From positions 1,116,001-1,180,000 of the forward strand of contig NC_012785.1 in assembly GCF_000023325.1 (NCBI RefSeq): 64,000 nucleotides of DNA, read 5' to 3'. Under the pieces are notes generated by a model, which worked only from the letters and a program-made list of their open reading frames with translations, made no database searches and was not told the DNA's origin. Position 1 is the stretch's first letter; every line of letters begins with the position of its first letter. Made by a program: the position numbers and the translations under genes. Source of the stretch: Kosmotoga olearia TBF 19.5.1. Lineage in GTDB: Bacteria; Thermotogota; Thermotogae; Petrotogales; Kosmotogaceae. This document shows, piece after piece, positions 48,551 through 52,924 of this stretch.

Positions 48551-48871
48551 ATGTGGATTATAATTTTGCTCTTTGGAATCACTTTAGTGGTTGCTCTTTT
48601 AGTTAAAGGTTATCAGGAGCCGGATGAAGAAACTGATCTTGCCGATTTGGGCACGTTCGATATAACATTTTCACCCCACGCACTGAAACGAATAAAGGAA
48701 AGAGAGATCAATCCTGAGGAGATAATAAAACTCCTGAAGGATAAAGATTCTCATGCTGAAATAGAAGCAGGTGGAAGGATAAAAGTGACAAACGGAGATT
48801 TGACCGTTATAATTACCAAGAACGGATCATCGCTTTACGTACTCACAGTCTTTTGGGAAGAGACAAAATAG
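48551..48871 (+). CDS. Membrane-anchored DUF4258-like protein
   Basis: A 106-residue protein with one N-terminal membrane helix (WIIILLFGITLVVALLV) and a soluble part with FSPHALKRIKEREINPEEII, then LTVIITKNGSSLYVLTVFW. The latter resembles DUF4258, a family of toxin-like or RNA-binding domains. The fusion to a membrane anchor is unusual. Divergent from the ABC-2 pseudogene by 27 bases. Confidence 0.65.
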   Translation: MWIIILLFGITLVVALLVKGYQEPDEETDLADLGTFDITFSPHALKRIKEREINPEEIIKLLKDKDSHAEIEAGGRIKVTNGDLTVIITKNGSSLYVLTVFWEETK

Positions 48872-48907: not shown

Positions 48908-49663
48908 ATGAAGAATTTTTTTGGGCCTGTGTTGCTGTTTTTGGTTTTGCTCTTTGCTTCCTGTCATCCAATTGATAACCCAATTGACGGTGATGGCCTG
49001 ATTCTTTTTGACGAAGGTCACGCCCAGACAGCCGGGAATGCTGATTGGGTGATCGACGGAGGATATTCGGAATTCGCGGATGCCCTCAAAGAAAAAGGGT
49101 ATTCAGTTGAAAGTACCGATGATCCTTTTGATTATTCCACACTTGCACGTTATGATGTCGTTATTATCCCTGAGCCCAATATCCGATTTAGCTCTGATGA
49201 AATAAGTGCGCTGAAACGATACGTTGAAAATGGTGGAAGTGTCTTCTTCATTGGAAACCATAGCGGAGCAGACAGGAATAATGACGGCTGGGATCCGGTT
49301 GAGATCTTCAATGAGGTTGTTAATGATGATTTTGGATTTAGATTTGACAGCAATACCGTCAGCGAGGACCCAATTGAAGATATTTTAGTAACACCGATTA
49401 CTTACGGTGTGAATGCAGTAGGAATGTGGGCTGGCAGTACCATAACCATTATCAATGATTCAAAGGTCCATGTTGCTATTAGGGCTTATGAGAAGCCTTA
49501 TGTTGTTTATGGTTATTACGGAAGCGGAAAATTTGTAGCGATTGGTGACAGCTCGCCCTTTGACGATGGGGATGGCGATCCCGGAGACAATCTCTACGAT
49601 AATTGGTATGATTATGATGATAGCGTTCTGGCTGTGAATATCGTTGATTGGTTGAGCAAGTAA
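48908..49663 (+). CDS. Lipoprotein with a GATase/DUF4350-like domain
   Basis: A 251-residue lipoprotein: MKNFFGPVLLFLVLLFASC with lipobox before C19. The mature part (LILFDEGHAQTAGNADWVID; FDYSTLARYDVVIIPEPNIR; ALKRYVENGGSVFFIGNHSG) has the strand-helix order of ThuA or GATase-1-like folds as in DUF4350 and glycan-handling proteins. An acidic C-terminal run (DDGDGDPGDNLYDN) could bind calcium. GGGAGG upstream of ATG. Function unknown. Confidence 0.65.
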   Translation: MKNFFGPVLLFLVLLFASCHPIDNPIDGDGLILFDEGHAQTAGNADWVIDGGYSEFADALKEKGYSVESTDDPFDYSTLARYDVVIIPEPNIRFSSDEISALKRYVENGGSVFFIGNHSGADRNNDGWDPVEIFNEVVNDDFGFRFDSNTVSEDPIEDILVTPITYGVNAVGMWAGSTITIINDSKVHVAIRAYEKPYVVYGYYGSGKFVAIGDSSPFDDGDGDPGDNLYDNWYDYDDSVLAVNIVDWLSK

Positions 49664-50054
49664 GGGAAAAACTGTTTTGTGAAAGAGTTTAGTCAACGAG
49701 AGAGAATAATTATGTATGTAGCATTTAGTTTATGTGGCAGCACTGTCTGCAATAAAAAGGTGTAATATTTTAAAAACCATCCCAAATTCGTAGTAGAAGA
49801 AATAAAAGCATACTAAAATAATTCAGTTAAAAAGGGGATTTCCGAAGAGTAGCGTCACGGCGCTAAAAGATGGAAAACAAAGGTGATGGATATAATATAT
49901 TTGAAAGTGTTGCTAAACGGAGTATAATAGATTAAGAGTCACATGATTTTGATGAATTCTTACGAGTTGCGATTCAATCCCTGACTTTGTTTTTCAAGGA
50001 ATTTATGCTTGACGAAAAGAGTTTAACCATACCACATAGAGGGGGGGAAATTAG
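49664..50054. other. Intergenic region upstream of the cohesin/papain pair
   Basis: 391 bases without a convincing gene. AGCGTCACGGCGCT near 49850 is a short hairpin, and a promoter-like pair lies at 49901-49928. The rest is AT-rich leader sequence ending at a strong GAGGGGGG site before 50055. Confidence 0.5.
49901..49928 (+). promoter_or_regulatory. Sigma-70-type promoter for the cohesin/papain genes
   Basis: TTGAAA (49901) and TATAAT (49923) are 16 bases apart, a near-consensus sigma-70 pair, 127 bases upstream of the lipoprotein gene. Confidence 0.6.
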
Positions 50055-51392
50055 GTGAAAAGGATTTACTTGATTTTGGCTCTTTTGGTTGTTTTAGTAC
50101 TTTCGAGTTGTATGCTTTTCAAGAATGATCCACCACTTATTTCACTTCACAGTACAGTTACGGAGGGGCAGGAAATTGCTCCAAAGACGATGGTTAGTTT
50201 TTCCTGGTCAGTATTGGATTCCGCAGACGATCCCCTTACGGTTAAATTTACCCTGAAAAAAGATGGCGAAGTGATTTTAGAAGAAGCGGGGATCAATGAA
50301 AAAACCGTGGCTATAGAAGAAGAAGGGCATTATACGGTTGTAATAACTGCTAACGACGGAAAGAATGTAACCACTGAAGAATTGAACTTTAAAGCAACGA
50401 ACCTGGTCACGGAGCTTTATCAGTCAGACAGTGGCCTCATATATTTAGACAGGAATCAATGGTTTGATTATGCTGAAGATGCTGAAGGTGACATCTTAAT
50501 TCGTTTTTACAAGGCAGAGGTTGATGAAACGGGAGAGGGTACCTATACTCGCATAAGATTGAACCTGGTTGATACGGACGGAGATGGATTGGGAGATGCC
50601 TGGGAAGAAATACCGAATGATCGTCCGGATCTGCAAGACTGGATTTCTTGCCCAGCAACTCTCACAGCATACGATACAACCTGGCAATTCTATCAGTTGA
50701 TGTACGGTGAGGATTTCATACGCTGTAGATATTATGGAACCAGCGGTACTTATCAAGGTTACGTGTTAGTGGACACTTTAGCAGAGGTTGGGTTCGAACT
50801 TGGAGTCCCCTATTCAAGGTATATTTACATGGATACCCCATATGGTCCCATTGGGGATTATAAAGGGTTCATGTTGAGGGAGAGGTATGATTCGGATTCA
50901 AAACCTGTTTTTAGTATTGAAGCCACACCTACCAGTGTCTCTACCGGTGCTACATTCACAGTGAAGGTCGTTGGGAAAAATGTAGCGGATTTTGCAAAGC
51001 TTTATGATACAAGGTACATGCAGCTTTCCCTCTGGAAGGATAGTGGAATAACGCTCGAGAGCGTTGATTTTAGCGACTTTATGGATGGTTTTGCCGATGT
51101 TTCCGCATACAATGTTAACGACAACTCAGTAACCCTTTATAAAGGTTTTACCGTTGATAAGGATGAACCGGAAGAAGCCTCGGATGTTTTTGCTGTTTTG
51201 ACCTTTAAAGTCAACGATGACTTTGATGGTTCCGAGATTTCCCTTGGCTTGGCGTATGAAGGTTGGTGGACAGGTTATGGCGATTATGTTGACCTGCCCA
51301 ATCCGATTTTTAGGGATAAAGACAACAAAGCGCTTGATGGGTTCGTAATTGACTACGTTCCGGTAACAGTAAGCGTTGAGTCAGCGGACTAA
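50055..51392 (+). CDS. Lipoprotein with cohesin-like domain
   Basis: A 445-residue lipoprotein (MKRIYLILALLVVLVLSSC, lipobox). Residues about 30-115 look like an Ig/PKD-type domain (LISLHSTVTEGQEIAPKTMV, VVITANDGKNVTTEELNF). Residues about 290-440 follow the cohesin pattern: FSIEATPTSVSTGATFTVKV, LQLSLWKD-type strand, ITLESVDFSDF, then FAVLTFKVNDDFDGSEISLG. Cohesins hold dockerin proteins. The next gene ends in a dockerin, so the pair probably docks on the cell surface. The cohesin call is by eye; related carbohydrate-binding folds remain possible. GTG-free start, strong GGGGGG site. Confidence 0.65.
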   Translation: MKRIYLILALLVVLVLSSCMLFKNDPPLISLHSTVTEGQEIAPKTMVSFSWSVLDSADDPLTVKFTLKKDGEVILEEAGINEKTVAIEEEGHYTVVITANDGKNVTTEELNFKATNLVTELYQSDSGLIYLDRNQWFDYAEDAEGDILIRFYKAEVDETGEGTYTRIRLNLVDTDGDGLGDAWEEIPNDRPDLQDWISCPATLTAYDTTWQFYQLMYGEDFIRCRYYGTSGTYQGYVLVDTLAEVGFELGVPYSRYIYMDTPYGPIGDYKGFMLRERYDSDSKPVFSIEATPTSVSTGATFTVKVVGKNVADFAKLYDTRYMQLSLWKDSGITLESVDFSDFMDGFADVSAYNVNDNSVTLYKGFTVDKDEPEEASDVFAVLTFKVNDDFDGSEISLGLAYEGWWTGYGDYVDLPNPIFRDKDNKALDGFVIDYVPVTVSVESAD

Positions 51393-51404
51393 GGGGGTGA
51401 AGAC

Positions 51405-52871
51405 ATGAGGCGAACAATTCTTTTGCTTATCGTGGTGTTGGCTATTGTTTCAATAGGATTGGCTGATTTGAAGTCCGAGGCTTCTGCTAACCAGTCAATC
51501 ATAAACGAGTCGATTAGATCCGCTGGCCTATTGTGGAATGCAGGGCTTAGCGAGGAATTTATAGAGAAATACGAGGCCTTTAACCTAAACAGCCTCGAGG
51601 AATTGTTTTCTAGACTCAGCGGATATGTATTCCTTCCTGGCGAGGTTCAGTTGAAAATAGATGAATATGTCAAAAAAATCTATGAGCAGGGGTTAAAAGG
51701 AAAGGTCACAATCGATGGCATGACCACGACCGATGATCTGATAATGGCTTCATACGTGTTCTTGCAACCTGAAACAGTGCCAGATGATACTTTTTACAGG
51801 ATTGAGCCTGTAAGGGATCAGTACTATCATGGCAGTTGTTGGGCTTTCGCGACGTCTGGTTCCTTTGAAAGCGCTAGAGCCGTACAGGAGCTCGGTGAAA
51901 TAGACGGGAATGCCGACAACATTTTTGATTACTCCGAGCGATGGTGTGCTTATCATAACATCGACTGGGATGTTTATTATGCTACTGGATACGAATATGT
52001 GCAGGACAGGAACAGCCTTGAGGGCGGTAATAGTTACTTCGCTATGTATAATGCTGTAAGATATGGAATGATGGAAGAACAGTATGCCCCATATTCCGAA
52101 GTTTTTATGGTTACTGACGAGGTTATACCGCTGCCTCCATCAGCGTACGGTGCTCCCAGAGTGAGGTCGTCCAAGACAATAATGATCCCGAGCGCCTATA
52201 CTTTCAAGGACTTAGGGTATACATACGAGCAATATCTTGACATTATCCAGCTAGCAATTGCAGAGTACGGTTCCCTTGCTGTATCATTTTATGTCCCTTC
52301 TGATCTTTACTATTATGAAAAGGGCATTTACACCCCTTCTCCAGGAGCATACAACACCGGAGGACATGCGGTAACGTTGGTTGGTTGGGCAAAAGCGGAA
52401 GATCTGGACGATATAGTTCTGGCGGGCAAGATAAACCCTGATGCAGCACCTGTTATCGAAGAAGAGATCGAGTCTTATGAATATTATGATCCTACGTTAG
52501 ATGCTACATTTGTCGCTGATATGTTCTGGATAATCAAAAACTCCTGGGGCTATTCCTGGGGGGATGGCGGCTACTTTGTTGTTCCTGTTATCACTGAAGA
52601 ACAATATAATAGTGAAGAAATAGGTTGGTGGCAGATAGAATCCCGTTCAATGTTTGTCCCTGTGTTTGATACCCTTGAGGAACACGCTGCCGATGATCTT
52701 GATATCAATGGAGACGGGGTCGTTAATCTTCAGGACTTCAGTGCACTGGTTAATTACATCGGTAGCGAAGATGAGGAAATAATAGCCAAATGTGACCTTT
52801 CTTACCCGAAAGATGGAGTAATAAACGGTGAAGATGTGGCTGCCTGGATATATCTTTACAACAATAGATAA
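51405..52871 (+). CDS. Secreted papain-like (C1A) cysteine protease with dockerin
   Basis: A 488-residue exported protein with signal peptide MRRTILLLIVVLAIVSIGLA. After a propeptide-like region of about 110 residues comes a papain domain: C145 in YYHGSCWAFATS, H321 in GGHAVTLVGW, N379 in IIKNSWGYSWGDGGYFVV. The C-terminal 55 residues hold two calcium-loop repeats, LDINGDGVVNLQDFSALVNY (433-452) and DLSYPKDGVINGEDVAAWIY, a type-I dockerin. It should cleave proteins outside the cell while bound to the cohesin-like lipoprotein encoded 12 bases upstream. Thermostable papain relatives with dockerins are rare. Confidence 0.88.
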   Translation: MRRTILLLIVVLAIVSIGLADLKSEASANQSIINESIRSAGLLWNAGLSEEFIEKYEAFNLNSLEELFSRLSGYVFLPGEVQLKIDEYVKKIYEQGLKGKVTIDGMTTTDDLIMASYVFLQPETVPDDTFYRIEPVRDQYYHGSCWAFATSGSFESARAVQELGEIDGNADNIFDYSERWCAYHNIDWDVYYATGYEYVQDRNSLEGGNSYFAMYNAVRYGMMEEQYAPYSEVFMVTDEVIPLPPSAYGAPRVRSSKTIMIPSAYTFKDLGYTYEQYLDIIQLAIAEYGSLAVSFYVPSDLYYYEKGIYTPSPGAYNTGGHAVTLVGWAKAEDLDDIVLAGKINPDAAPVIEEEIESYEYYDPTLDATFVADMFWIIKNSWGYSWGDGGYFVVPVITEEQYNSEEIGWWQIESRSMFVPVFDTLEEHAADDLDINGDGVVNLQDFSALVNYIGSEDEEIIAKCDLSYPKDGVINGEDVAAWIYLYNNR

Positions 52872-52890
52872 GGCAGATTTGTAGCAGATA

Positions 52891-52924
52891 AAGCGGAACC
52901 TTTTTATAAAGGTTCCGCTTTTTT
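52891..52924 (+). terminator. Rho-independent terminator after the protease gene
   Basis: AAGCGGAACC and GGTTCCGCTT form a perfect 10-bp stem around a 10-base AT loop, followed by a T-run. It ends the cohesin/papain operon; the convergent flippase-like gene stops at 52971. Confidence 0.9.

Follow-up and report, generated by a model that had tools for sequence, protein, structure and literature searches.

Gene organization

The window analyzed here is a stretch of 64,000 nucleotides from the chromosome of Kosmotoga olearia TBF 19.5.1 (NC_012785.1, positions 1,116,001-1,180,000 of 2,302,126 bp in total), and all coordinates below refer to it. Two adjacent open reading frames on the forward strand encode a lipoprotein and a secreted papain-family protease. 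They are separated by 12 nt, just as the first-pass annotation of this region had described them, and share a reading frame. A promoter-like site precedes the pair and a terminator-like hairpin follows it:

49901..49928, + strand: promoter-like site TTGAAA-16-TATAAT, sigma-70-like, agreeing at 11/12 positions (consensus scan), upstream of the two-gene unit
50055..51392, + strand: lipoprotein gene, 445 aa, GTG start (from ortholog alignment); anchor with a cohesin-like domain
51405..52871, + strand: gene for a secreted C1A (papain-family) protease with a C-terminal dockerin, 488 aa (PF00112, PF00404, Foldseek matches to falcipains and cathepsins)
52890..52921, + strand: intrinsic terminator-like hairpin, 14 pairs plus a T tract, closing the unit

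Since these two elements bracket exactly two genes, with no third gene inside, the pair looks, from its sequence, like a two-gene transcription unit. We rejected the reading of both frames as a single read-through fusion gene, because the protease has a separate start, ribosome-binding site and signal peptide. Upstream of the pair, the ORF at 48908-49663 (251 aa) carries a possible lipobox (ASC) and matches to DUF4350/ThuA/GATase1-like domains, and its neighbor at 48551-48871 shows a weak DUF4258 match.

Domain architecture of the protease

The features of the protease, all on the same strand, are as follows:

51405..51464, + strand: Sec-type signal peptide, residues 1-20, with basic n-region, hydrophobic core and ...SIGLA-D
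51465..51776, + strand: N-terminal pro-region, residues 21-124, preceding the C1A domain; probable zymogen propeptide
51777..52604, + strand: C1A catalytic domain, residues 125-400 (PF00112 match at 132-393)
51837-51839, 52365-52367 and 52539-52541, + strand: active-site codons of C145, H321 and N379, invariant in 28 homologues
52692..52862, + strand: dockerin domain, residues 430-486 (PF00404 above cut-off)
52701..52736, + strand: dockerin calcium loop 1, residues 433-444, DINGDGVVNLQD; canonical, with D433, D437 and D444 invariant
52794..52835, + strand: dockerin loop 2, residues 464-477, DLSYPKDGVINGED; non-canonical, with a two-residue insertion

Peptidase_C1 (PF00112) matches the protein at 1e-21 in Pfam, and the complete papain Gln/Cys/His/Asn active site is present, with Q139, C145, H321 and N379 invariant across 28/28 homologues. 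The earlier assignment as a secreted C1A protease with C145, H321 and N379 in its active site is thereby borne out. The closest structural relatives of the protease model in Foldseek are falcipains and cathepsins, and the pro-region is modeled as helical with low-to-moderate confidence.

The first-pass annotation had further suggested a search of the C-terminus with the Dockerin_1 model (PF00404), which matches residues 433-479 at 1.7e-5 and 25.4 bits, above the curated cut-off of 22.9 bits. When the whole K. olearia genome was scanned, the same domain scored 29.4 bits and was the single dockerin found even at E<=10. Two calcium-loop repeats had been proposed for it. Loop 1 is indeed canonical (D433-I-N-G-D437-G-...-D444), whereas loop 2 is not fully so, spanning 14 positions from D464 to D477 instead of the 12 residues of an F-hand calcium-binding loop. 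This two-residue insertion occurs in most members of the family, while G097 and G099 have a canonical loop 2; in the Athalassotoga group loop 2 is degenerate, with most of its acidic residues gone, although D464 is kept. Asp 433, 437 and 444 in loop 1 and Asp 464 in loop 2 are invariant in the 28 homologues. The difference between a canonical loop 1 and an atypical or degenerate loop 2 points to a single, asymmetric mode of cohesin-dockerin binding as the likely one.

Domain architecture of the lipoprotein

Three regions can be distinguished in the lipoprotein:

50055..50111, + strand: signal peptide with lipobox LSSC, residues 16-19, and lipidated Cys19 (lipobox also in orthologues)
50124..50903, + strand: spacer of beta-sandwich (Ig/PKD-like) domains, residues 24-283 (weak PKD/Big_9 matches; strands in the AlphaFold2 model)
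50904..51389, + strand: cohesin-fold domain, residues 284-445 (PDB profile matches, PF00963 on orthologues, Foldseek, family profile)

The LSSC lipobox noticed earlier is found at residues 16-19, and a lipobox is kept in every orthologue with a complete N-terminus. An AlphaFold2 model, built with 28 orthologues, predicts a confident chain of beta-sandwich domains (overall pLDDT 84.8, mostly 80-94 within the spacer). The N-terminal part diverges among orthologues, and the C-terminal cohesin domain is the best-conserved part of the protein.

The identification of the C-terminal domain as cohesin-like draws on several kinds of evidence. The most direct search, with the Pfam Cohesin model (PF00963) as the first-pass annotation had proposed, gave no match to the K. 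olearia lipoprotein (hmmscan, E<=1) and none across its genome at E<=10. On orthologues, the same model exceeds its cut-off of 24.1 bits in G013 (L089; 30.0 bits) at the same gene position, falls just short of it in G080 (23.3 bits) and G042 (L070; 23.1 bits, E 0.0011), and matches more weakly in G100 (17.8 bits), G031 and G023. When all PDB sequences were searched with a profile built from the C-terminal domain, cohesins took ranks 1-5, each with a weak score (E about 0.1). Profile-profile alignment (hhalign) with seven known cohesins is marginal (E 0.032), and a phmmer search of the PDB with the G013 cohesin found nothing. The predicted fold, the second check that had been suggested, does resemble a cohesin: the single-domain Foldseek matches listed for the lipoprotein model are cohesins throughout, with target-normalized TM scores of 0.60-0.72 (2jh2 0.72, 4uyp 0.71, 6kgf 0.71, 2xdh 0.64). 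They include Ruminococcus flavefaciens ScaC, a cohesin-like module of Clostridium perfringens, ScaB of P. cellulosolvens, a C. cellulolyticum cohesin, CaCohA2 (6kgd), A. cellulolyticus ScaC and the non-cellulosomal Archaeoglobus fulgidus cohesin (2xdh). Multi-domain matches, such as complement C3 and similar proteins, reflect the tandem sandwiches of the lipoprotein.

Beta-sandwich folds are readily confused, and the failure of the Pfam model on the K. olearia domain together with the marginal hhalign score would also suit a generic Ig/CBM-like adhesion module, in which case the dockerin might stabilize the protease or bind something else. We regard this as very unlikely, given that no other Ig-like fold is among the single-domain Foldseek matches listed, that PF00963 matches orthologues at exactly the lipoprotein gene, and that this best-conserved domain occurs only beside dockerin proteases. 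We conclude from the orthologues, the profile search and the predicted fold that this C-terminal domain is a cohesin whose sequence has diverged strongly, in keeping with its first description. The lipoprotein of G013 (L089, G013:C46) carries a far more typical cohesin of 30 bits beside its dockerin protease; it is 21% identical to that of K. olearia, so that the sequence may have diverged extremely or the domain may have been exchanged for another with the same function.

Distribution in Thermotogota

A comparison with related Thermotogota had been recommended by the first-pass annotation, and we searched 103 genomes of the phylum with a profile of this cohesin family. It is present in 28 copies in 27/103 genomes, one per genome except for two in G026; the one member in K. 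olearia adjoins that genome's one dockerin gene. For 27 of the 28 family cohesins, in 26 genomes, the next gene downstream on the same strand encodes a C1A protease with a dockerin, and the distance between the two genes ranges from -32 to +15 nt. This count includes G100, whose two genes occupy the ends of two contigs, with orientations that match. The dockerin proteases of G018, G030 and G009 are located at contig edges and were excluded from the judgement of neighbors. The host genomes belong to 13 genera in 7 families, and from group to group the pair has different flanking genes. The association of all intact family cohesins with a dockerin C1A protease (27/27) is far beyond chance, and the pair is more general than was first noticed. 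Within genus g9 the unit occurs in 1/7 genomes (G042), which suggests that it may move as a block. In G026 (L084, G026:C33), two lipoprotein-protease pairs stand in tandem; the sequence of the second pair is different, and its specificity might be as well.

Natural controls are provided by C1A genes that lack a dockerin. Such paralogues in G008, G009, G011, G013 and G102 have no cohesin neighbor, and in G064, where two long C1A proteins lack a dockerin, the cohesin family is missing from the whole genome. The cohesin thus tracks the dockerin and not the protease. The dockerin-less genes at L213-L217 (G013:C114, G011:C75, G009:C80, G008:C1 about 1737527 and G102:C54) are directly preceded by a gene for a PQQ/BamB-like beta-propeller, some with CarboxypepD_reg and fn3 domains, and this is possibly a second, different partner of the C1A family. 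Outside Thermotogota, no cohesin-family neighbor was detected at 37 distant C1A loci of other phyla with the profile, which would miss diverged cohesins; some planctomycete proteins among them end in dockerin-like repeats.

The 28th copy, in G028, is a frameshifted lipoprotein gene whose partner protease has been lost, so that the unit has decayed as a whole. This joint loss would also be compatible with a lipoprotein whose main role is regulatory, serving the dockerin-protease to which it binds as chaperone, activator or inhibitor (zymogen control), with anchoring secondary. A C1A protease is a hazard to the cell that makes it, and immunity proteins, chaperones and inhibitors are typically encoded in just this way, in strict 1:1 operons with the gene for the partner in first place. 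However, the conserved interaction module has a cohesin fold and the dockerin is a separate C-terminal module, which is the classic layout for tethering; moreover, the lipobox is conserved and there is no sign of an inhibitor-like element. We therefore judge a primarily regulatory role to be unlikely.

Two further arrangements were encountered in other Thermotogota. Four consecutive ORFs (887, 726, 637 and 274 aa) with dockerin matches make L081 (G102:C64:1-8473) a candidate multi-dockerin cluster. Large proteins at L105 (G006:C17), L110 (G007:C292), L111 (G028:C59) and L113 (G029:C29) combine in one chain a cohesin and, after it, a dockerin-like loop, and could self-assemble.

Probable cohesin-dockerin pairing

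Since the K. olearia genome has a single dockerin even at E<=10 and a single cohesin of the family, the choice of partner is nearly forced, and the description of a one-enzyme system holds quite literally in this organism. The dockerin might instead have its partner in some other cohesin-bearing protein of the envelope while the lipoprotein serves another client, and large cohesin-bearing proteins do exist in other Thermotogota. In K. olearia, however, PF00963 has no match and both the family cohesin and the dockerin are single, which makes this extremely improbable.

Modeling of the complex, also proposed at the outset, was possible as one chain because of the shared frame. A single TAA was read through to give a 655-residue cohesin-GGED-protease chain, with an alignment in which 5 more rows were natural read-throughs and 30 were unpaired. 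The cohesin and dockerin were modeled with a pLDDT of about 94 and the linker was floppy (46-55); the pTM was 0.79 and the mean pLDDT of the five models spread from 76 to 86. If the cohesin were placed randomly, the pTM would have an approximate ceiling of 489/655 = 0.75, a figure for which not all 489 residues are confident. As 0.79 exceeds this ceiling, the model appears to place the cohesin firmly against the protease-dockerin part. The pTM gives placement and not the docking face, and we take the model as supporting, not proving, the pairing. A Foldseek search with this model listed the papain part alone and was silent on docking. Mirror-tree correlations were high (cohesin-catalytic 0.93, cohesin-dockerin 0.88). 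Once the catalytic domain was controlled for, however, a partial correlation of just 0.24 was left; the signal therefore mostly reflects shared ancestry and was set aside as evidence of binding.

Discussion

We consider it highly probable that the two genes encode a 1:1 calcium-dependent cohesin-dockerin anchor that would hold a protease at the cell envelope. The computations establish the gene layout, the lipobox, the catalytic triad, the dockerin family membership, the cohesin fold and the obligate linkage across the phylum, whereas physical binding, its calcium dependence and the location and side at the membrane are our inference. The lipoprotein would be lipid-anchored in the cell envelope, with its beta-sandwich spacer holding the single cohesin domain away from the membrane. 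Sec would export the C1A protease, probably in zymogen form with a propeptide at its N-terminus, and the calcium-binding dockerin at its other end would plug into the cohesin of the lipoprotein. In this way the active enzyme might be kept at the envelope 1:1 with its anchor and not be lost to the medium. It could be on the outer surface or face the periplasm, and would presumably serve to degrade environmental or envelope proteins.

To our knowledge, cohesin-dockerin pairs outside cellulosomes have mostly been scattered domain annotations with the partner unassigned; the key survey of such non-cellulosomal modules is reportedly that of Peer et al. in 2009. Here the genome names its own pair, with one cohesin and one dockerin in neighboring genes, a pattern found in 26 genomes and accompanied by natural controls, and two small recombinant domains would suffice to test the function of a non-cellulosomal pair. 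Our results suggest a way in which Thermotogota hold an extracytoplasmic protease, reveal a cohesin lineage mostly missed by current domain models, and offer about 27 natural partner pairs, several of them from thermophiles, for protein engineering. A more speculative and rather doubtful extension is that they represent a separate, ancient lineage of cohesin-dockerin recognition, which in its simplest form consists of one lipoprotein and one enzyme. If so, the modules would be seen here in a pre-scaffold state, scaffoldins having arisen elsewhere through cohesin duplication and enzyme recruitment, and the orthologues could serve as a natural set of heat-stable cohesin-dockerin pairs that are orthogonal to one another.

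No prior description of the pair was found in the accessible portions of the open-licence literature, although the 2009 survey may list single Thermotogota modules; no paper in that literature was found to combine dockerin and Kosmotoga, and the Thermotogae papers found do not appear, in their accessible portions, to describe the pair. Non-cellulosomal pairing as such is already known, and what appears to be new is its minimal 1:1 form, conserved across the phylum, in which a papain-family protease would be tethered by one cohesin and one dockerin.

The system shares its two kinds of module with the cellulosomes of Clostridium, which differ in having a multi-cohesin scaffoldin and a set of dockerin enzymes, whereas K. 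olearia has one cohesin and one dockerin. A cellulosome is defined by a multi-cohesin scaffoldin with several dockerin enzymes, a combination absent from the K. olearia genome, and a cellulosome remnant was rejected since there is neither a scaffoldin nor a second dockerin. Cohesins and dockerins occur in many organisms that are not thought to degrade cellulose (PMC9012536). An S8 protease of C. thermocellum, whose double dockerin dDoc_0689 binds the cell-bound ScaD (reviewed in PMC12484212), likewise has a proposed dockerin-mediated anchoring at the cell surface, but it is a serine protease with a double dockerin within a full cellulosome system. The nearest functional precedent is R. flavefaciens RflaF_05439, in which cysteine-peptidase-like modules are combined with an X-dockerin that binds the cell-surface ScaE cohesin (PMC3573020). 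As proposed for Kosmotoga, cohesin and dockerin keep this protein of the cysteine-peptidase type at the cell surface; its modules are of the NlpC/P60 type and not C1A, it uses an X-dockerin dyad, and its sortase-anchored ScaE is common to a cellulosome in a system with over 220 dockerins. The A. fulgidus cohesin-dockerin pair, an orthogonal anchor that has been used for surface display (PMC9705933), resembles the Kosmotoga pair in its cohesin fold (2xdh) and in being a cohesin and dockerin pair from a (hyper)thermophile without a cellulosome. The Kosmotoga modules differ from it in residing on a lipoprotein and a protease, in a two-gene unit conserved across a phylum, and in the far divergence of their cohesin.
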